Below the pieces are notes generated by a model. The model saw only the letters and a list, made by a program, of their open reading frames with translations, searched no databases and was not told the origin of the DNA. 64,000 nucleotides of DNA, from NCBI RefSeq assembly GCF_004339595.1, contig NZ_SMFU01000007.1, positions 62,001-126,000 of the forward strand. The letters are read 5' to 3'. Within the stretch, counting starts at the first letter, position 1, and each line of letters opens with the position of its first letter. Made by a program: the position numbers and the translations under genes. The DNA is from Marinobacterium mangrovicola (lineage in GTDB: Bacteria; Pseudomonadota; Gammaproteobacteria; Pseudomonadales; Balneatricaceae). Positions 38,050 to 49,154 of the stretch are shown here, piece by piece.

Positions 38050-38952
38050 TTATTTCGCTTTGCGCGAGGTCTGTGCGATCAGCAGTTCGCGCAGGGTGCG
38101 GATAAACGGCTCGCGGCTGCGGCCGCGGCGGCAGATCATCGAGAAGGGCGCCTGGTAGCCGAATTCGGCGGGTACCAGCGGCCTTAGCCGACCCTGTTTC
38201 ACAAATGGCTGGGCGTAGTGCTCCGGCAGATAGCCGACAAAGCGGCCGGACAGGATCAGTGCCAGCTGTGCCTCCATGCTCTCCACGGTGGCGGTACTGT
38301 GGCCGAAGCCGCGCTTGCGCAGGTCCGCCATGTTCCAGTAGCTGCGGGTGACCAAACCATACTGGGTGATGGTTTCCGGCGGGATGCGGCGCTGGGTAAA
38401 CAGCGGATGCAGGTCACTGCAGTAGAGCCAGTGCTGCTCGCGGTAAAGCTTCTCCTCGATCACGTTATTGGTGCTCGAGGGGTAGTTACCGATCGCCAGG
38501 TCCAGCTGATTGTTCAGAATTCCCTGTACCTGTTCGTAGGGGCTGCGGATCTGCAGATTGAAATGCACCGCCGGAAAGCGGTCGTTGAACTGGCGCAGAA
38601 TCTCCGGCAGTGAAAGCGCTTCGTCCATCACCGTGGCATCCAGTACCGCCAGGGTGAAAGTCCCACCCTTATCGCCTTTCAGCGCTTCCGCCTGGCGCTC
38701 CATTGATTCGTACTCGTCGAGCAGTTTCACCGACTGATGCAGAAACTGCTGTCCCTTCTCGGTTAGCGAAAAGCCGGAACGGCCGCGCTGGCAGAGCACG
38801 AAACCAAGGTGGCTCTCCAGTTCGCTCATGTAGTTGCTGATCGCGGAAGCGGTGAGCTTCAGCTCCTGCTGAGCCCCTGAGTAGCCCTGGTGCTGGACCA
38901 CGGTTACAAATACTTCCAGCAGCCTGATGTTAAGACGCTTGTCCGGTCTCAT
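38050..38952 (-). CDS. LysR-family transcriptional regulator
   Basis: The 300-residue protein has an N-terminal winged helix (LNIRLLEVFVTVVQHQGYSGAQQELKLTASAISNYM) and a periplasmic-binding-like effector domain (GTFTLAVLDATVMDEAL, LDLAIGNYP). It is divergent from the ureohydrolase/dioxygenase/ABC operon that begins at 39103, with a 150-base shared control region. By the usual LysR logic, it should control that operon and respond to the compound the operon handles. It converges with the SLC13 gene, whose last codon is 13 bases away. Confidence 0.92.
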   Translation of the reverse strand: MRPDKRLNIRLLEVFVTVVQHQGYSGAQQELKLTASAISNYMSELESHLGFVLCQRGRSGFSLTEKGQQFLHQSVKLLDEYESMERQAEALKGDKGGTFTLAVLDATVMDEALSLPEILRQFNDRFPAVHFNLQIRSPYEQVQGILNNQLDLAIGNYPSSTNNVIEEKLYREQHWLYCSDLHPLFTQRRIPPETITQYGLVTRSYWNMADLRKRGFGHSTATVESMEAQLALILSGRFVGYLPEHYAQPFVKQGRLRPLVPAEFGYQAPFSMICRRGRSREPFIRTLRELLIAQTSRKAK

Positions 38953-38978
38953 GCGCGATTTCTATCCCGTTTTTTACT

Positions 38979-38997
38979 TCAGTAATTTGTGAACTGA
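38979..38997. promoter_or_regulatory. Candidate LysR-type operator
   Basis: TCAGT (38979-38983) and ACTGA (38993-38997) form an inverted repeat with a 9-base spacer, fitting the T-N11-A rule for LysR sites. It lies in the intergenic region 26 bases upstream of the regulator and about 105 bases before the ureohydrolase. Confidence 0.5.
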
Positions 38998-39102
38998 TTA
39001 TTTTTGATTTGCTATTTAACCGTCAAGTTGCCGTTCCTAAGATGGATCTAGATTCATTCATTTGGGCCTCAGGCAGGACCTGGAAACAGAGGGTTAAGAG
39101 TT

Positions 39103-40053
39103 ATGGAAAAGCAACTTCATCAGCCGCAGAGTGGAAACGACATGCCCCGCTTCGGCGGCCGCGCGACGATGATGCGACTGCCGTTTGTGGAGGAGCTTGA
39201 GGGACTGGATGCAGCATTCGTTGGTATCCCGTTGGATGTGGGTACCTCCCAGCGTGCAGGAACCCGTTACGGACCGCGCCAGATACGTGCCGAGTCGGTG
39301 ATGATCCGTCCGTACAACATGGCGACCGGCGCTGCGCCTTTCGATGCCCTGTCCGTGGCCGATATCGGCGATGTACCGATCAACACCTACAGTCTGCTGA
39401 AGTCGGTCGACATCATCGAAGACTACTACACCCGTCTGAACGATTACCCGCTGATCCCGCTGACGCTGGGCGGTGATCATACCCTGACCCTGCCGATTCT
39501 GCGCGCCATCGCCAAGAAACACGGCCCGGTGGGCCTGATCCATGTGGACGCCCACACCGACACCAACGACAACATGTTCGGTGAGAAAATCGCCCACGGC
39601 ACCACCTTCCGCCGCGCAGTGGAAGAGGGGCTGCTGGACCTGAACCGTGTTGTACAGATCGGTCAGCGCGCCCAGGGGTATTCTGCCGATGACTTCAAGT
39701 GGGGCGAGCGCCAGGGATTCCGCCTGGTGACCGCCGAGCAGTGCTGGCACAAGTCGCTGGAACCGCTGATGGCGGAAGTTCGCGAGCAGATCGGCGATGG
39801 CCCTGTCTATCTCTCCTTCGATATCGACGGTATCGACCCCGCCTGGGCGCCGGGTACCGGCACGCCGGAAGTGGGTGGCCTGACTTCGATCCAGGGGCTG
39901 GAGATCGTACGTGGCTGCAAGGGCCTGAACCTGATCGGTGCCGACCTGGTTGAAGTGGCACCGGCTTATGACATCAGCGGTAACACCTCGCAGCTGGCGG
40001 CCAACCTGCTTTACGAAATGCTGTGTGTCTTGCCGGGCGTGAACTACCGCTAA
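39103..40053 (+). CDS. Guanidinobutyrase/agmatinase-family ureohydrolase
   Basis: These Mn- or Ni-dependent enzymes split urea from a guanidino group. The 316-residue protein has all metal motifs: LTLGGDHTLTLP, IHVDAHTDTND and YLSFDIDGIDPAWAPGTGTPE. Its N-terminus (MPRFGGRATMMRLP) and the GTRYGPRQIRAESVMIRPYN loop resemble Pseudomonas GbuA/GpuA (guanidinobutyrase/guanidinopropionase) more than arginine-decarboxylase-linked agmatinases. Guanidinobutyrate, guanidinopropionate or a related acid is the best guess; guanidine itself is possible, because this superfamily includes guanidine hydrolases. It is the first gene of the LysR-controlled operon. Confidence 0.9.
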   Translation: MEKQLHQPQSGNDMPRFGGRATMMRLPFVEELEGLDAAFVGIPLDVGTSQRAGTRYGPRQIRAESVMIRPYNMATGAAPFDALSVADIGDVPINTYSLLKSVDIIEDYYTRLNDYPLIPLTLGGDHTLTLPILRAIAKKHGPVGLIHVDAHTDTNDNMFGEKIAHGTTFRRAVEEGLLDLNRVVQIGQRAQGYSADDFKWGERQGFRLVTAEQCWHKSLEPLMAEVREQIGDGPVYLSFDIDGIDPAWAPGTGTPEVGGLTSIQGLEIVRGCKGLNLIGADLVEVAPAYDISGNTSQLAANLLYEMLCVLPGVNYR

Positions 40054-40078
40054 GCCGGGACGGATTGAGGAGTACCGC

Positions 40079-40924
40079 ATGGAACTGGATATTTTTCGCA
40101 CCCTCTGGGGGGTGACGGCGCCGCTGGAAAGCTATGCCGAACAGCTGAAAAGCGTTGGTTTTACCGGTGTCGAGGCCCGCATAGCGGCGACCTCTGAAGA
40201 GCGTAAAGCGTTTCGTCAGGCACTGGATAATACCGGCATGGAGCATATCGCCATCCTGTTCACTGGCGGCGATGTAATCCCGGACCAGTTCGAGACCAGC
40301 GCCGATCATCTGGCGCGTATGGACCGGCTACTCGATGCGGCGGGCGAGCTGTCGCCGCGCTTTATCAACGTGTTGCCGGGTAATGACCGCTGGGCGATGT
40401 CGGAGCAGGTGGAGTTTTTTGGCAGGGCGCAGGAGCTGGCCGACAAGCACGGCATCCTCTGCAGCTTTGAAACCCATCGCGGCACGTCGCTGTACAGCCC
40501 CTGGGTGACGCTGGATCTGATCCGTCAGCTGCCGCAGCTGCAGTTCACCACCGATATCAGCCACTGGGTGCTGGTCTGCGAGCGTTTGCTGAACCATTCC
40601 AAGGATGACCTCAGCGCCTTTATCGACCGGGTTCACCACGTTCAGGCCCGTGTCGGTTATGACCAGGGGCCGCAGGTACCGCACCCGGATGCACCGGAGT
40701 ACCGGAGCCAGCTCGAATTTCACCAGTCGATCTGGGAAGCGGTGTGGCGCAAGCATATCGAGAAAGGCTATGAGCGCAGCACGCTGACCACCGAGTTTGG
40801 CCCTGACGGTTACCTGCATCACCTGCCGTTTACCAACGTGCCGGTGGCCGATCTCTGGTCGCTGAACGAGCGCATGGCGATCGAAGAGCGCCGTCATTTC
40901 AACCAATTCATCCAGTCTGTTTAG
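40079..40924 (+). CDS. Sugar-phosphate isomerase/epimerase-like TIM-barrel protein
   Basis: The 281-residue protein belongs to the xylose-isomerase-like TIM-barrel superfamily. It has GFTGVEARIA near residue 24, the middle strand ILCSFETHRGTSLYSPW with Glu and His suited to metal binding, QFTTDISHWVLVCERLL, and VHHVQARVGYDQGPQVPHP. Members are isomerases, epimerases, dehydratases or endonucleases, so the reaction is open. It sits 25 bases after the ureohydrolase and 10 before the dioxygenase, tightly within the operon, implying that it acts on the same small molecule. Confidence 0.82.
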   Translation: MELDIFRTLWGVTAPLESYAEQLKSVGFTGVEARIAATSEERKAFRQALDNTGMEHIAILFTGGDVIPDQFETSADHLARMDRLLDAAGELSPRFINVLPGNDRWAMSEQVEFFGRAQELADKHGILCSFETHRGTSLYSPWVTLDLIRQLPQLQFTTDISHWVLVCERLLNHSKDDLSAFIDRVHHVQARVGYDQGPQVPHPDAPEYRSQLEFHQSIWEAVWRKHIEKGYERSTLTTEFGPDGYLHHLPFTNVPVADLWSLNERMAIEERRHFNQFIQSV

Positions 40925-40934
40925 GAAGTAGATA

Positions 40935-42023
40935 ATGAGCAGTCAGACAAGCAGCGTCACTGAAGCAAAAGGTCAGGAAACCAGCGCTTTTCAGTCGATT
41001 CCGCTGGTGAACGTATCAGGTCTGTTCAGCGATAACCTGGACGATCGCAAACAGGTTGCCGCAGAGATGGGCAAGGCAGCCCGTGAGGTGGGTTTCCTCT
41101 ATGTGACCGGTCACGGCATTCCCAAGCAGAAGATCGCCAAGCTGCGTGAAGCGGCCAAGTGGTTCTTCGCCCAGTCGATCGATACCAAGATGGATTACTA
41201 CATCGGTGCTTCCAAAAGCCACAAGGGCTTCGTGCCGGAGGGTGAAGAGATCTACGGCACCGGCAAGCCGGACCGCAAGGAAGCTTATGACGTGGGCTTC
41301 CCGGCGCCGGCCGATCATCCGCTGGTGCTGGCGAAAACCCCGCTGATCGGTGAGAACGAGTGGCCGGTGGATGAGAACTTCCGCGCCTGGGTGCTGGATT
41401 ACTACGAAACCGTTTTCGCCCTGGGCCGCAAGCTGTTCTCCGGATTCGCGCTGGCGCTGGATTTATCTGAGGATTATTTCGAATCTCTGGTAACCTGCCC
41501 GCCCTCAAAATTGCGCCTGATCCATTATCCCTATGATGCCGACGCTGAAGACCGCCCGGGTATTGGCGCCCATACCGATTACGAGTGCTTCACCATGCTG
41601 CTGTCCGACAAGGCTGGGCTTGAGGTGATGAACGAGGATGGCGAATGGATCGATGCTCCGCCGCTGACTGTTAAAGGGGAAAAGGGAGAGGAGGAAGCAT
41701 TGGTGATCAATATCGGCGATATGCTGGAAGTACTCACCGCCGGCCAGTTCATAGCTACCTCTCACCGGGTGCGCAAGGTGGCCGAGGAACGTTACTCCTT
41801 CCCGCTGTTCTTCGCCTGCGACTACCACACCCTGATCAAGCCGCTACCGCAGTTCAGTGAAGGGGCCGGAGAATACCGGGAGCTGAGCATTGGCGAGCAT
41901 ATGTACAGCCAGGCTCTGCAGACCTACAGCTACCTGCGCGACAAGGTCGCCAAGGGCGAACTGTCGATGCCGGAGCGGGCCACCGCGGTGAAGACCTTCG
42001 GCCATATGAAAACCACTCAATGA
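40935..42023 (+). CDS. 2-oxoglutarate/Fe(II)-dependent dioxygenase (isopenicillin N synthase family)
   Basis: The 362-residue enzyme has the DIOX_N segment ([22 protein letters not shown]) and the catalytic jelly roll. Iron ligands are in [13 protein letters not shown] (HxD) and SHRVRKV (second His), and the 2-oxoglutarate contact R-x-S is in ERYSFPLFF. It should hydroxylate or oxidatively cut an amino or guanidino substrate. Plant members of this family release guanidine from homoarginine. The operon context, with a ureohydrolase before it and an amino-acid-type ABC transporter after it, suggests a guanidino or polyamine-like substrate. The substrate cannot be read from sequence. Confidence 0.9.
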
Positions 42024-42085
42024 AACCGGCTAAACGAAAGCTAGAACAAACCAAATAACTGATAATCCCTTTGAGGAGATTGACC

Positions 42086-42883
42086 GTGAAGATGACCAAA
42101 GCGCTTGTAAAAACCGGGCTTTCCGTACTGTCTGCGGGCATCCTGAGCCAGGCTGTCAGTGCAGCACCCCTGATGACAGAGGGTGATCTGAAAGTGGGTA
42201 TGGAGATCAGCTATCCGCCGTTCGAATCTTACGACGGTGACAAAGTGGTCGGTTTTGACCCGGAAATTTCCGCTCTGCTGGCAGAGAAAATGGGAGCCAC
42301 CGCCAGCTTCCACGACACCAAGTTCACCGGCCTGATCCTGGGCCTGGGCGCCAACAAGTTTGATGCCGTTATCTCCGGTATGTACATCACCGAAGAGCGC
42401 CTGAAAAAGGCCGATGCGATTCCTTACGGCCTGACCGGCGCCTCCATCCTGGTGATGAAGGACAGCGAGGTTAAACCTCAGACCGCTGAAGATCTGTGTG
42501 GCGTTAACGTTGGTTTGCAGCAGGGTACCGCCTGGGTCAGCCAGTTGCAGAGCCTGTCTACTGATTACTGCGAAGCCAACGGCAAAGAGCCGGTAGAAAT
42601 TCAGGAATTCCCCACCGCTCCTGAAGTTTCCCAGGCGCTGATGTCCCGCAATGTGGAAGCGCAGCTGGAGATTGCCGGCGCTGCCAAGATGTTTGTTGAG
42701 CGTACCCGTGGTCGTCTCGAGATCAGCTCTCCGGAACTGGTGTATCCGCAGACCTTGGGTATGTACGTGAAACAGGGCAACACCGAAATGAAAGAGGCGC
42801 TGGAAAAGGCGCTGGAAGAGATCAAGGCTGACGGTTCTTACGCTGCTCTGATCGAGAAGTACGAGCTGACGCCGGTCGAATAA
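42086..42883 (+). CDS. ABC transporter substrate-binding protein (polar/basic amino-acid type)
   Basis: This is a periplasmic binding protein of the HisJ/GlnH family. The signal peptide ends QAVSAAP. The mature part opens GDLKVGMEISYPPFESYDG, followed by FDAVISGMYITEERLKKAD, GVNVGLQQGTAW and LVYPQTLGMYVKQGNTEMKEAL, all typical strands. I choose the GTG at 42086 because GAGGAG lies seven bases upstream; an ATG at 42092 is the alternative. The ligand is probably a cationic or guanidino amino acid or acid, judging from family and operon. Confidence 0.9.
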   Translation: MKMTKALVKTGLSVLSAGILSQAVSAAPLMTEGDLKVGMEISYPPFESYDGDKVVGFDPEISALLAEKMGATASFHDTKFTGLILGLGANKFDAVISGMYITEERLKKADAIPYGLTGASILVMKDSEVKPQTAEDLCGVNVGLQQGTAWVSQLQSLSTDYCEANGKEPVEIQEFPTAPEVSQALMSRNVEAQLEIAGAAKMFVERTRGRLEISSPELVYPQTLGMYVKQGNTEMKEALEKALEEIKADGSYAALIEKYELTPVE

Positions 42884-42917
42884 GAACGGCAGTTAATGTA
42901 AAAAACAGGAGCGAAAA

Positions 42918-44453
42918 ATGAGCCTGGATTGGGAATATTTCTTCTCGTTGTTCACCCTGGCCGCGTTTTGGAAAGCGTGTGTCACGGTGGTGGTTCTCAG
43001 TACGCTGTCGTGGGGAATTGGACTCGCTCTGGGCTTCCTCGTAGCTTCTGCAAAAATGTCCAGCCATCGTTGGCTGAATATACCTGCCAAGGTGTACGTG
43101 TGGTTCTTCCGCAGCGTACCCCTGCTGGTGGTACTGGTCTTTGTATTCAACCTGCCGCAGCTGTTTCCTTCCACCGGCTCATTCCTCGGCGTGCCGTTTA
43201 TCGCCGGCCTGGTGAGTCTGGTAGTGACTGAAGCGGCCTACATGGCAGAGATTCATCGCAGCGGCCTGCTGTCGGTGGCCAAGGGCCAGCGCGAAGCGGG
43301 CCATGCCCTGAATATCGGATTCCTCGGCGTGCAGCGGATGATCGTGATCCCCCAGGCGATCCGTATCTCCATGCCGTCGCTGATCAATGAATATGTCACC
43401 ATCATCAAGCTGAGCTCGCTGGTATCGGCGATCTCCCTGCCGGAGCTGCTACAGACCGGCCAGCGCCTCTATGCCCAGAACTTCCTGGTGCTGGAGACCC
43501 TGCTGGCAGTGGCGGTGTACTACGTGATGATCGTGACCGTGTTTGGCTCGGTGCTGCAGTGGGCCGAGAGAAAGCTCGATGTGCCTTCACGCCGCCCCGG
43601 TACGCTCAGCGATGCCGAGTGCGAACGTTTGCGTAAAGAGGCGCAGCCGTTACCGACCCGCCAGCCGGCGCCGTCCCATGGTGCGCCCAAGGCGCTGCAG
43701 CTGCGCGGCATTCAGAAATCCTACGGTGAGCACCAGGTACTCAAAAGCGTTGATATGAACGTGGGCATCGGTGAGGTGATCAGCGTGATTGGGCCGTCGG
43801 GCTCGGGTAAAACTACCCTGATCCGCACCGTGAACATGCTGGAAGAGCTCAACGGCGGCGAGATCGTGCTGTTCGGAGAGGATTTCATCAAGGGTGGCGC
43901 TACGCCGGATCGAAATCGAGTCCGTGCCGGTATGCTGCGCATCGGCATGGTGTTTCAGAGCTTCAACCTGTTCCCGCACAAAACCGCGCTGGAAAATATC
44001 ATGATGGCGCCGCGCTACCACGGTAAATCGGCCGATACAGAGGTGGGTCGCAAGCAGGCGCTGCATCTGCTGGATCGGGTCGGGCTGCTGATGCATGCGG
44101 ATAAATACCCGCATCAGCTTTCCGGCGGTCAGCAGCAGCGTGTGGCGATCGCCCGCACCCTTGCGCTCTCTCCTGATATCATCCTCTTCGATGAGCCGAC
44201 CTCGGCGCTGGATCCGGAGATGGTGGGCGAAGTGCTCAAGGTGATCCAGGATCTGGCGAAAGAGGGGATGACGCTGATCATCGTGACCCATGAGATGGAC
44301 TTTGCACTGAACGTCTCCGATCGTGTGGTGATGATGGAGCATGGCGTGATCCAGGCGGATGCGTCACCGACGCAAATCATCAACGCGGATAGCAGCACAC
44401 CGAATCTGCTGCGTGCAAGAGAGTTTATGGGTAAAGCGGAGGCAACAGCATGA
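42918..44453 (+). CDS. Fused ABC permease-ATPase of amino-acid type
   Basis: The 511-residue protein joins a HisM-type permease to a HisP/GlnQ-type ATPase. The permease half (about residues 1-225) has five helices and the EAA loop ([21 protein letters not shown]). The ATPase half starts at about 255. It has the Walker [14 protein letters not shown], the signature [17 protein letters not shown], the Walker [15 protein letters not shown] and the H-loop IVTHEMDF. A 25-30 residue Pro/Ala-rich linker joins them. Two copies would make a homodimeric importer, which explains why no second permease or ATPase gene is present. Its stop overlaps the aldolase start. Confidence 0.93.
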
Positions 44454-45181
44454 TGGCAACAGAAGCGGAACTACGACGCGATCTGGCTGCTTCATACCGC
44501 CTGGCAGCGATGCTGGGCTGGGAAGACACAATCTACACTCACTTTTCCGTGCGTTTGCCGGGTGAAGGTGAACCACGCTTCCTGATCAACCCGTTCGGTT
44601 ATATGTTCGATGAGATCCGCGCCAGCGATCTTATCGTGGTCGATGTAAACGGCAAGGTGGTCGATGGCGACGCCAAATACAACCCGGCCGGCTTCACCAT
44701 CCACAGCGCTGTGCATATGGCGCGTGAAGATGCACACTGTGTCATCCACACCCATACCCTGCCGGGCATGGCGGTGGCGGCCTGTGACAAGGGGCTGCTG
44801 ACACTGAACCAGATCAGTGCCGAGTTCCATAACCGGGTCGGCTATCATCCCTACGAGGGGGTGGCGTTCAACCTGGAGGAGCGGGAGCGGATCCAGCGGT
44901 CACTGGGCGACAACATCGCGCTGATTCTGCAGAGCCACGGGCTGCTTAGTGTCGGTGAAACCATCGCGGATGCGTTCCAGGTGATGTATTACCTGAACAA
45001 GGCGTGCGAGATCCAGCTGGCGGCCGCGCAGATGGCGGCGCTGACACCGGTCTCGGAGATTCCCGAGTCGCTGGCGCAGTACGTCTGCGGCCAGTTCAAG
45101 GCGACCGAATCCGAGCGCCAGATGGTGTGGCAGGCCTGGCTGCGTAAGCTGGATCGTCTCGATCCTTCTTATAAGGACTGA
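44450..45181 (+). CDS. Class II aldolase/adducin family protein
   Basis: The 243-residue protein has the zinc-dependent aldolase fold seen in fuculose-phosphate aldolase. Metal ligands are in [14 protein letters not shown] (two His) and LQSHGLLSV (third His), with the strand [13 protein letters not shown] near the start. Activity could be aldol cleavage, epimerisation or decarboxylation. It overlaps the transporter by four bases and is the last gene before a strong terminator. It may cleave the hydroxylated product of the upstream dioxygenase, which is an inference from position only. Confidence 0.88.
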
Positions 45182-45204
45182 GTAGCGGAAATTGCATAGC
45201 AACG

Positions 45205-45234
45205 AAAAAGCCTGGGCGTATCCCAGGCTTTTTT
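45205..45234. terminator. Bidirectional intrinsic terminator
   Basis: A perfect 12-bp stem (45205-45216 with 45222-45233) has core GCCTGGG, a CGTAT loop, and an A run on one side and a T run on the other. It ends the LysR-controlled operon and the oppositely oriented PA2778-type gene. Confidence 0.93.
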
Positions 45235-46844: not shown

Positions 46845-47225
46845 TCAGTTGAAGTCCGGCAGCTGGGGTTTGACCACTGTTTTTCCGGCGCTCTGCCAGG
46901 CGTCGAAGCCGCCGATAATCGAGCTGACATGCAGGTAGCCCATCTCTTTCATCGCCAGCGCAGCCAGTGCCGCCCGGCCACTGGTTTTGCAGTAGAGCAG
47001 GATATTCAGATCCCGGGTCGACAGCGCCTCATCGCCGCTCAATTTGAATTCGAGCAGACCGCGCGGAATATTGATCGCGCCAGGAAGATGGCCGGCTGAA
47101 AATTCATCGGGCTCACGCACATCGATAATCACATCGGCGGATTTTATCTGTATCTCGGCGGCATCTGCGTCGATCTCCTGAATCTGCGCCTTGGCAGCGC
47201 CGACAAGGTCCATGGCCGTTTTCAT
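46845..47225 (-). CDS. Rhodanese-domain sulfurtransferase (start inside the fused frame)
   Basis: This is the 126-residue rhodanese part of the preceding frame, listed separately because its own ATG at 47225 has a GGAGG site upstream and can still initiate. It begins MKTAMDLVGAAKAQIQEI. It has the CH2A motif VREPDEFSAGHLPGAINIPRG and the active-site cysteine in YCKTSGRAALA. Sulfur transfer to or from persulfide is expected, which fits the SulP transporter on one side and the persulfide-dioxygenase-like gene further upstream. Confidence 0.72.
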   Translation of the reverse strand: MKTAMDLVGAAKAQIQEIDADAAEIQIKSADVIIDVREPDEFSAGHLPGAINIPRGLLEFKLSGDEALSTRDLNILLYCKTSGRAALAALAMKEMGYLHVSSIIGGFDAWQSAGKTVVKPQLPDFN

Positions 47226-49154
47226 GATTGCTGTACCTCCATTGGCTGTTTTTTCGCGCAGGCTTCCGCTTTGGCTGCCAGCGTGCGTTGTGTTGTTTCC
47301 GGGTCCAGGGTTGCCATCGCCTCGTACTGGCTCAGGTACACGTTGCCGGTCAGCTGTTGCAGCAGGTGGCTGTTGCGCAACTGGTTTCGCGCAGGCTTCC
47401 GCTTTGGCTGCCAGCGTGCGTTGTGTTGTTTCCGGGTCCAGGGTTGCCATCGCCTCGTACTGGCTCAGGTACACGTTGCCGGTCAGCTGTTGCAGCAGGT
47501 GGCTGTTGCGCAACTGGTCCATCACCGGGCCTTTTACCTCCGACAGGTGCAGGGTGATCCCGGCGATGCCAAGGCGCTCATTGATCGCTTCAAGGCTTTC
47601 CAGGGCGCTGGCATCGATCAGGTTCACGCCAGGGCACATCAGTACCAGGGAATCGATACCCGGATGGGATTCCACCAACGCCGCGATGCGGTCTTCCAGA
47701 TAGCGGGCGTTGGGAAAATAGAGGCTTTCATCCACCCGTACCGTCAGTACGTGGGGGCTTTGCACCACGTGAAAGCGCTCCTCATTACGAAAGTGCTGGC
47801 TGCCAGGTAACTGGCCCACCACCGCCATATGCGGTTTGCTGGTGCGCCAGAGAAAAAGCACCAGAGACAGCGCGAGTCCGAGCATAATGCCGGTTTCCAC
47901 ACCGACGATCAGTACGCCGATCAGCGTGGCCAACAGGGCGATACCGTCCTGTCGTGAGTACTTCCAGGTACGGGTGATGGCGCGCAGATCCACCAGGGTC
48001 AGCACGGCAACGATGATGGTGGCCGCCAGTACGGCGCGGGGCAGGCTTTCAAACAGCGGGGTGAAGAACATCACCGTCACCCCAATTCCCAGGGCTGAAA
48101 GGGCACCGGCCAGCGGTGTCTGGGCACCGGCTTCAAAGCTGACCACGGAGCGGGAGAAACCGCCGGTCACCGGCATGCCGCCGCTGATCGCCGAGGCGAT
48201 ATTGGCGCTGCCCAGGGCGCTGAGTTCCTGGTTGGGGTGGATGCGCTGGCGCCGCCGCGCGGCAAAGGTCTGCGCCACGGAGACCGATTCCATAAAGCCC
48301 ACCAGGCTGATCAGCACGGCACCGGGCAGTAGCTGGTAGATCAATGCCAGATCGAAGGTCGGCAACTGCAGCGAGGGGAGCCCGGTTGGTACCTGGCCAA
48401 CCACGGGAACGCCTGCTTCTGCCAGGTTCAGCCAGGCCACCAGTGCCGCGGTGACGACCAGCGCCAGCACCGGCGCGGCGCGGCTCAGATTGGCGGCGGC
48501 GCCGGTTGAAAGGCCGATCGCCATCAGGGTGTTTTTGCCCTGTTTGCGCGCCAGGTAAAGAAAGGCGATGCTGCCGAGGCCGATCAGCAGGGTCGGCAGG
48601 TTAGTGGAGCCCAGCCCCTCCAGCGTGGAGGTCAGCAGCTCAAAAGCGGTATCGCCACCGGCCTTGATGCCGAGGATATGACGCAGCTGGCCCAGCGTGA
48701 TCAGAATGCCGGAGGCGGTAACAAAGCCGGAGACCACCGGGTGGCTGAGAAAGTTGACCAGGAAGCCGAGTCGCAGCAGCGACATGCCGATCAGAATCAG
48801 ACCGGAGAGCATCGCCATCAGCATGGCAGCCTGCACATACTCCGCGCTGCCCGCAGGGAACAGCGGCATCAGGATGGCGCCGGTCATTAGTGAAACTACC
48901 GCCACGGGGCCCACCGCCAGCGCCCGGCTGGTGCCGAACAGCGCATAGGCGATCAGCGGCAGGATGCTGGCGTAGAGACCGATCACCGGAGGCAGTCCGG
49001 CCAACATGGCATAGGCCAGGCTCTGGGGGATCAGCATCAGCGTGACGATGACGGCGGCGAGGCCATCCTTGAACGCCATATCGCGATTGTATTCGCGCGC
49101 CCAGCTCAGGCAGGGCAAAAGGCTTGCGGCTTTGATCTTGGGGAAGCGGCTCAT
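46845..49154 (-). CDS. SulP anion transporter fused to a rhodanese by a tandem duplication
   Basis: The 769-residue frame begins with a complete SulP/SLC26 transporter. About 12 helices run to residue 420, with FKDGLAAVIVTLMLIPQSLAYA and GGMPVTGGFSRSVV, and a STAS domain follows (about 455-560, LVLMCPGVNLIDASALESL). It ends with a rhodanese domain (VIIDVREPDEFSAGHLPGAI, active LLYCKTSGRA). Between them lies about 50 residues of Pro/Gly/Thr-rich peptide that is the translation, in a shifted frame, of a 133-bp DNA segment already read once (see the repeat). Removing one copy restores two genes: SulP ending in ...EACAKKQPMEVQQS, and a rhodanese whose ATG overlaps the SulP stop as ATGA. I therefore regard the fusion as recent, or possibly an assembly artefact. 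Confidence 0.88.
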   Translation of the reverse strand: MSRFPKIKAASLLPCLSWAREYNRDMAFKDGLAAVIVTLMLIPQSLAYAMLAGLPPVIGLYASILPLIAYALFGTSRALAVGPVAVVSLMTGAILMPLFPAGSAEYVQAAMLMAMLSGLILIGMSLLRLGFLVNFLSHPVVSGFVTASGILITLGQLRHILGIKAGGDTAFELLTSTLEGLGSTNLPTLLIGLGSIAFLYLARKQGKNTLMAIGLSTGAAANLSRAAPVLALVVTAALVAWLNLAEAGVPVVGQVPTGLPSLQLPTFDLALIYQLLPGAVLISLVGFMESVSVAQTFAARRRQRIHPNQELSALGSANIASAISGGMPVTGGFSRSVVSFEAGAQTPLAGALSALGIGVTVMFFTPLFESLPRAVLAATIIVAVLTLVDLRAITRTWKYSRQDGIALLATLIGVLIVGVETGIMLGLALSLVLFLWRTSKPHMAVVGQLPGSQHFRNEERFHVVQSPHVLTVRVDESLYFPNARYLEDRIAALVESHPGIDSLVLMCPGVNLIDASALESLEAINERLGIAGITLHLSEVKGPVMDQLRNSHLLQQLTGNVYLSQYEAMATLDPETTQRTLAAKAEACAKPVAQQPPAATADRQRVPEPVRGDGNPGPGNNTTHAGSQSGSLREKTANGGTAIMKTAMDLVGAAKAQIQEIDADAAEIQIKSADVIIDVREPDEFSAGHLPGAINIPRGLLEFKLSGDEALSTRDLNILLYCKTSGRAALAALAMKEMGYLHVSSIIGGFDAWQSAGKTVVKPQLPDFN
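47252..47518. repeat. 133-bp perfect tandem duplication
   Basis: Bases 47252-47385 recur at 47385-47518 with a constant 133-base offset and no mismatch that I can see. The unit covers the end of the SulP STAS region up to its last codons. Because 133 is not a multiple of three, the second copy is read in another frame, which removes the SulP stop and joins it to the rhodanese. Confidence 0.95.

Follow-up and report, generated by a model that had tools for sequence, protein, structure and literature searches.

What compound is broken down by an operon that sets a ureohydrolase beside an iron-dependent dioxygenase, a TIM-barrel protein, an amino-acid importer and an aldolase, and by what chemistry is this achieved? 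The question is raised by positions 38,050 to 45,181 of a 64,000-nucleotide stretch of the Marinobacterium mangrovicola genome (G000, 4.98 Mb), the whole of which is called the window here (contig NZ_SMFU01000007.1, positions 62,001 to 126,000). The answer favoured, with a little less than even confidence, is a LysR-linked catabolic operon for an amino-acid-type guanidino compound, in which the dioxygenase (DIOX) and the TIM-barrel protein (TIM) would together dealkylate a guanidino nitrogen before a guanidinobutyrase-type ureohydrolase (GbuA) acts upon the product. The case is made at the level of sequence, from gene content, conservation, a pattern of gene replacement and the kinship of DIOX. 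The features of the locus are as follows.

38050..38952, minus strand: LysR-type regulator, divergent from the operon (Pfam HTH_1 and LysR_substrate).
39103..40053, plus strand: GbuA, 4-guanidinobutyrase-type ureohydrolase (Pfam Arginase, 1.5e-89; PDB 3nio).
40079..40924, plus strand: TIM, xylose-isomerase-like TIM barrel, proposed hemiaminal lyase (Pfam AP_endonuc_2).
40935..42023, plus strand: DIOX, Fe(II)/2-oxoglutarate (2OG) dioxygenase, assigned to the MgdH superclade (Pfam DIOX_N and 2OG-FeII_Oxy).
42086..42883, plus strand: family-3 solute-binding protein of an amino-acid ATP-binding cassette importer (Pfam SBP_bac_3, 8.9e-33).
42918..44453, plus strand: fused permease-ATPase of the importer, a single 511-residue open reading frame (ORF) with BPD_transp_1 at residues 35-220 and ABC_tran at 275-429.
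44450..45181, plus strand: class II aldolase/adducin family protein (Pfam Aldolase_II; NCBIfam PRK07044 subfamily, above cut-off).
About 45204..45234, plus strand: intrinsic-terminator-like hairpin (RNA fold z -4.91).

ORFs, Pfam families and RNA folding confirmed the layout described in an earlier sequence-only reading of this DNA, namely a co-directional run of six genes between a divergent LysR gene and a terminator. The order is GbuA, TIM, DIOX, binding protein, permease-ATPase and aldolase, all on one strand, with intergenic distances of 25, 10, 62 and 34 bases followed by a 4-base overlap between the last two genes. The hairpin that follows has a stem of 13 bp with a U-rich 3' arm and a folding energy of -22.5 kcal/mol; a consensus terminator scan did not pick it up, probably because its T-run lies inside the stem. 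The binding protein more likely starts at the GTG at 42086 than at the TTG at 42071 given in the ORF list, since AGGAGA stands six bases 5' of the GTG.

Conservation was assessed by scanning the contigs of GTDB species with a DIOX profile, which returned at least 557 relatives; the best 80 loci are used for all counts out of 80, and at each the stretch examined was about 10 kb to either side or up to the contig end. Hidden Markov model (HMM) scans place TIM next to DIOX in all 80 loci, and orthologues of both importer genes are found in 77, the exceptions being L083, which lies on a short contig, and two Acetobacter loci (L086 and L120) with a less similar importer. The constant core of the cluster is TIM, DIOX and importer. 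The accessory genes are the aldolase (31 of the 80 loci, at 38% identity or more), GbuA (30), a GhrA-like dehydrogenase (24), a short-chain dehydrogenase/reductase (18), AruI (10) and a DDAH-type protein together with an M20 amidohydrolase (5), and 23 loci hold the core without any of these. The complete seven-gene order recurs at 96–100% identity in Marinobacterium lutimaris, the nearest named relative found at the locus (96% over DIOX, in a listing that may omit the window's own record), and at 55–89% identity in Marinomonas, Oceanobacter, a Granulosicoccaceae genome and one more of the same family. Thus the comparison of neighbourhoods that had been called for refutes the prospect of a gene set conserved nowhere else. 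Families with the cluster include the Oceanospirillaceae, Vibrionaceae, Psychromonadaceae, Enterobacteriaceae, Moraxellaceae, Pseudomonadaceae, Burkholderiaceae and Acetobacteraceae. The cluster is seen as well in the type strain of Acinetobacter baylyi (L065). The record behind L134 (CP125156.1) bears a plasmid label but measures 5.37 Mb with 4315 features and is probably a chromosome.

That the cluster serves guanidino catabolism is well supported by the enzymes that accompany the core. GbuA finds its best PDB match in guanidinobutyrase 3nio (560 bits over 314 residues, E 1.2e-167), as against 314 bits to the 3-guanidinopropionase GpuA (3nip) and at most 226 bits to the other solved structures, and its translation contains the metal-binding motifs of the ureohydrolases, GGDH, HxDAHxD and DxDxxDP. 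By these comparisons it is closer to guanidinobutyrase than to GpuA, agmatinase or arginase; its NCBIfam label is the agmatinase equivalog, above the cut-off. A LysR homologue lies divergently, less than 600 bases from GbuA, in 28 of the 30 GbuA-bearing loci. The guanidinobutyrase of Pseudomonas aeruginosa, which has a LysR activator, is highly similar (it is the 3nio protein) and likewise has a divergent LysR gene, but the window GbuA differs in sharing its operon with an oxygenase, TIM, an importer and an aldolase. Five Enterobacteriaceae loci (L064, L068, L069, L079 and L081) carry a second GbuA-like gene (47–49%) with a divergent LysR gene a few kb past the operon, accompanied in four of the five by a second binding-protein gene.

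The place of GbuA is taken in Vibrio, Psychromonas and two Acetobacter loci by an M20 amidohydrolase and a protein of the DDAH/arginine-deiminase type. Three further loci of the Vibrio kind contain the same pair (one of these, L243, repeats L059), and in one additional locus, L247, the pair follows the aldolase. On a DIOX tree built from all but 27 of 101 rows, those omitted being TIM-only loci in the range L082-L133, the DDAH state requires two changes, neither of which the well supported branches allow to be avoided. Compared with solved structures, the Vibrio M20 protein scores better against N-carbamoyl-beta-alanine amidohydrolase (2e-103) than against allantoate amidohydrolase (1e-59), and so fits an omega-ureido acid; amidases of the hydantoinase/carbamoylase family also rank above allantoate amidohydrolase. 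A ureohydrolase, converting a guanidine into an amine and urea, and a deiminase with a carbamoylase, converting it via a ureido compound into an amine, would have the same net outcome, which makes it probable that a guanidino group borne on a chain is carried through the pathway. Of the earlier proposal, import and guanidino catabolism stand, with a nearly constant importer and a GbuA nearest to 3nio; release of urea by the ureohydrolase holds for part of the loci, given GbuA in 30 of the 80 and the deiminase pair in five.

A third guanidino enzyme is AruI, the 5-guanidino-2-oxopentanoate (2-ketoarginine) decarboxylase, which in loci of the Pseudomonas viridiflava type (840 bits, cut-off 500) lies inside the cluster with an aldehyde dehydrogenase. 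The arginine transaminase pathway uses AruI, aldehyde dehydrogenase and GbuA, the first two taking 2-ketoarginine to 4-guanidinobutyrate, and the P. viridiflava-type loci resemble it in this respect. The window genome does not: neither it nor any of four others (0 of 5) has an AruI match above the NF005712 cut-off, and the AruI route was therefore rejected for the window organism.

DIOX itself has a complete Fe/2OG site, with H213, D215, H277, R286 and S288 conserved. In the PDB it is matched best by 9ovh (1.9e-58), an entry named ethylene/succinate-forming enzyme, and next by 6jyv, whereas other chains named as ethylene-forming enzyme match far more weakly (9eir at 2.9e-17; 5v2t, 5lun and others at about 3e-13). 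Its nearest described relatives, by kinship and neighbours, are taken to be the superclade of MgdH, a methylguanidine hydroxylase published in 2025 that forms a hemiaminal, which is then cleaved by the lyase MgdL (PMC12508155). In the comparisons MgdH was represented by the L169 protein, which is 52% identical to DIOX and whose gene adjoins an MgdL homologue and a guanidine carboxylase gene. The gene after this L169 dioxygenase encodes a 225-residue protein with D and R at residues 49 and 51, the D49 and R51 reported for MgdL, and the two genes are flanked by those for guanidine carboxylase and allophanate hydrolase, the arrangement also reported for MgdH and MgdL in V. boliviensis (PMC12508155). 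From these residues and this context the window DIOX is taken as a member of the MgdH superclade, a new point of the present analysis that puts it nearer to MgdH than to the plant homoarginine hydroxylases, which the sequence-only reading had brought in for comparison.

The guanidine connection extends to ten loci among the more distant relatives of DIOX (about 41–57% identity; L136, L167, L169-L171, L173, L174, L176, L202 and L244), which hold guanidine carboxylase pathway genes, namely urea/guanidine carboxylase-like, UAAP1, UAAP2 and often allophanate hydrolase. Guanidine-I and/or guanidine-II riboswitches at the Rfam gathering level occur in seven of the nine carboxylase loci scanned (L136, L167, L169, L170, L171, L174 and L202). 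None was detected in the other two (L173 and L176), in five loci without carboxylase genes (L041, L168, L172, L175 and L203), or in the window and L071, L058, L086, L065, L054, L078 and L179; L235-L237, L244 and most of the 80 loci lay outside these scans. All 83 operon-type proteins have K at residue 192 of the dioxygenase, a position two before the conserved R194 and 21 before the iron ligand H213; the 12 MgdL-linked proteins all have Q. It is a guess that K192 faces the substrate, and it could suit a carboxylate-bearing one; together with an amino-acid-type importer, whose binding protein has distant matches to glutamine-, lysine/arginine/ornithine- and nopaline-binding proteins, it fits a carboxylated, N-substituted guanidino substrate. 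MgdH-type dioxygenases with MgdL homologues are spread over several families (L041, L167-L174, L176, L202, L235-L237 and L244) and extend past Salinisphaera and Vreelandella, the genera named in a section of the paper on this system (PMC12508155). Two tandem dioxygenases are present in L172, L235 and L237, which come from one genus.

TIM gave no match to PDB sequences at E 0.01, and its AlphaFold model (pLDDT 87.3) retrieved xylose-isomerase-like barrels with Foldseek at 10–17% identity among the 50 matches listed; assignment of function by structure was dropped, all of these matches being of low identity. With one HMM for TIM and one for MgdL, the 80 GTDB loci gave 80 TIM and no MgdL. A further 36 superclade genes (at least 410 bits, window included) divide into 17 with TIM, 18 with MgdL (in 15 loci), none with both and one with neither (L042). 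Removal of three repeats of the 80 (L039=L054, L047=L060, L243=L059) leaves 33 genes, of which 14 have TIM, 18 MgdL, none both and one neither, and 12 distant dioxygenases (at most 325 bits) have neither partner. The partner mostly lies less than about 150 bases from the dioxygenase; it is 1.1–3.5 kb away in L172, L235, L236, L237 and L175, and about 0.2 kb away on the opposite strand in L173, and the MgdL match in L041 is partial (48.7 bits). Four genomes (G031, G590, G757 and G1031) contain a TIM locus and an MgdL locus at separate sites, each dioxygenase with its own partner. Within the 64-kb window the MgdL HMM (E<1) found no homologue, TIM itself included.

These counts depend on how they were obtained. 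A single-sequence tblastn search for MgdL missed several loci that a five-sequence HMM found, and five of the MgdL-scored loci helped to build the HMM that they match, while the dioxygenase profile, A5, includes both kinds. The scan covered DIOX loci available as wide stretches plus L138; the matches set aside (L201, L215, L219, L224, L230-L233 and most of one search's matches weaker than about 1e-71) all have scores that fall among those of the distant group. For the short stretches L138 (4 kb), L083 (6 kb) and L057 (10 kb), absence of MgdL is local only.

Relatives of TIM (33–47% identity) also occur near an FA_desaturase-like gene unrelated to DIOX (L049-L053, L205 and L206). L050 and L053 contain guanidine carboxylase genes and riboswitches in addition, and in L053 a guanidine-II riboswitch lies directly 5' of the FA_desaturase-TIM pair. 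Such loci possibly represent a further guanidine-releasing system, and from this pairing TIM seems to act after an oxidation, no matter which enzyme carries that out; as the loci were found via TIM, they are no test of the exclusivity between TIM and MgdL. Several of them also have metallo-beta-lactamase-fold, EamA or NMT1-type importer genes. Taken as a candidate hemiaminal lyase, TIM stands by an MgdH-superclade hydroxylase in the place of MgdL and has no sequence homology to MgdL. The better reading makes it the hydroxylase's partner, and so the equivalent of MgdL; splitting of a carbon chain, the role that it and the aldolase had been given in the sequence-only reading, suits it less well.

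If TIM does stand in for MgdL, then DIOX and TIM together would N-dealkylate a guanidino compound oxidatively. The importer would take up a compound with an alkyl-substituted guanidino nitrogen, for example an arginine or guanidino acid with an N-omega-methyl or N-omega-carboxyalkyl group. Using O2 and 2-oxoglutarate, DIOX would hydroxylate the carbon on the substituted nitrogen to form a hemiaminal, and TIM would accelerate the breakdown of this hemiaminal into an unsubstituted guanidino acid and an aldehyde (or oxo-acid). GbuA would then convert 4-guanidinobutyrate, formed directly or via 2-ketoarginine, into 4-aminobutyrate and urea, a deiminase and carbamoylase taking its place in other lineages, and the aldolase and GhrA might process the aldehyde or oxo-acid by-product. 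The substrate class, the site of hydroxylation, the lyase activity of TIM, the role of the aldolase and regulation by LysR are thus all presumed parts of the scheme. The window aldolase is a closer match to TqaM and NovR than to FucA, and its best match, 3ocr, is a protein with a class II aldolase/adducin domain; that it substitutes for AruI and aldehyde dehydrogenase by oxidative decarboxylation is an idea only. In Pseudomonas dryadis an isochorismatase-family hydrolase gene (L098:11080-11772) lies between the transporter and the aldolase.

The proposed operon resembles the MgdH/MgdL system of Vreelandella boliviensis in its superclade 2OG dioxygenase, its adjoining dedicated second gene, its importer and its guanidino target. 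It differs in having a LysR gene and no riboswitch, an amino-acid-type importer, GbuA in place of guanidine carboxylase, K192 rather than Q, and a TIM barrel rather than the beta-barrel modelled for MgdL (PMC12508155). A figure legend in that paper lists N-monomethylarginine (NMMA) and asymmetric dimethylarginine (ADMA) among the panel of compounds tested (PMC12508155).

Several observations weigh against N-dealkylation followed by guanidino breakdown. In the stretches examined, 45 of the 80 loci have neither GbuA nor the DDAH and M20 pair, and 44 have neither of these nor AruI; a Kozakia plasmid locus has a deiminase gene without an M20 match, the best NCBIfam label of the M20 protein is allantoate amidohydrolase, above cut-off, and no aminotransferase was recognised near AruI among the neighbours typed. 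The aldolase and the GhrA-like dehydrogenase have no place in a simple demethylation. The TIM-linked L136 and L175 have Q, not K, at residue 192, and the low-identity structural matches of TIM are mostly epimerases and isomerases, together with dehydratases, C-glycoside-cleaving enzymes and some lyases. The alternation of TIM and MgdL may moreover be lineage inheritance, because on a tree without three quarters of the GTDB loci L082-L133 and eight of the 12 distant genes, TIM linkage changes twice, there are just one or two independent pairs, a sign test cannot reach significance, and a single origin is not rejected (p-AU 0.371).

Some of the same observations suit other explanations. DIOX could hydroxylate a chain carbon, TIM isomerise the product and the class II aldolase cut it by retro-aldol cleavage or decarboxylation, leaving fragments for GbuA or GhrA. 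The closeness of the TIM model to sugar isomerases and epimerases would agree with this, as would the joint presence of aldolase and GhrA-like genes in 24 of the 80 loci (19 with GbuA and five with DDAH and M20); however, 49 TIM-DIOX loci lack an aldolase of this family in the stretches examined, and the TIM relatives in L050 and L053 accompany guanidine carboxylase and a different oxidative enzyme, again with no aldolase of that kind. Splitting of the chain is considered unlikely. Alternatively, DIOX and TIM might free guanidine from arginine or homoarginine in the manner of plant 2-ODD-C23, with GbuA serving a second imported compound. Plant arginine and homoarginine hydroxylases are reported to set guanidine free (PMC12186494, PMC12508155), and superclade members do stand beside guanidine carboxylase genes, in one case (L136) with TIM. 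The best PDB match of DIOX also bears the name of an ethylene/succinate-forming enzyme. Studied ethylene-forming enzymes hydroxylate arginine as well, and like plant homoarginine-6-hydroxylase they are 2OG dioxygenases reported to act next to the guanidino nitrogen, but their reactions release free guanidine, unlike the one proposed here. GbuA, the DDAH and M20 pair and AruI all require a chain-borne guanidino group, the riboswitch is absent from all eight scanned sources of the window-operon type, and the operon contains no guanidine carboxylase; plant-like release was rejected as first choice on the evidence of the accessory enzymes and the riboswitch, and is held to be decidedly unlikely.

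An opine-type reaction, in which DIOX would hydroxylate an octopine-like, N2-substituted arginine on the carbon at its alpha-nitrogen and so give 2-ketoarginine or arginine with an oxo-acid or amine, is held to be very unlikely. Such a reaction would account for AruI without a recognised transaminase gene alongside, and the binding protein is distantly akin to a nopaline-binding protein, but the kindred MgdH acts on the carbon attached to the guanidino nitrogen (PMC12508155). Finally, an ordinary gbuR-gbuA pair may have come to lie by chance beside an unrelated amino-acid oxygenase operon, in keeping with the 50 of 80 TIM-DIOX loci without GbuA in the stretches examined. Against this, the window GbuA is co-directional and ends 25 bases 5' of TIM, and separate GbuA-less lineages carry other guanidino enzymes; chance neighbourhood is held to be highly improbable.

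Outside the operon, the window contains a perfect 133-bp tandem duplication (47252-47517, inside the region 46845-49154), the length of which is not a multiple of three. There, a SulP-like transporter ORF and a rhodanese-like ORF, named from sequence without a family search, form a single 769-residue frame, and their counterparts in M. lutimaris (L054) match in different, overlapping frames.

No description of the gene set of this operon was found in the open full-text literature, most subscription papers and all preprints being outside the scope of that search. It is tentatively suggested that TIM represents a new class of N-(1-hydroxyalkyl)guanidine lyase. With an MgdH-superclade dioxygenase it would, in many Gammaproteobacteria (among them Pseudomonas, Klebsiella, Acinetobacter and Vibrio), oxidatively N-dealkylate arginine or guanidino acids substituted at N-omega, for example methylarginines. 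The sources and fates of methylated guanidines in nature are described as little known in the discussion of PMC12508155. A conserved module of hydroxylase and partner in common genera would, if true, add a branch for amino-acid-type guanidino compounds, would give an uncharacterised TIM-barrel family a new activity and would provide candidates for the breakdown of methylarginines or arginine glycation products.

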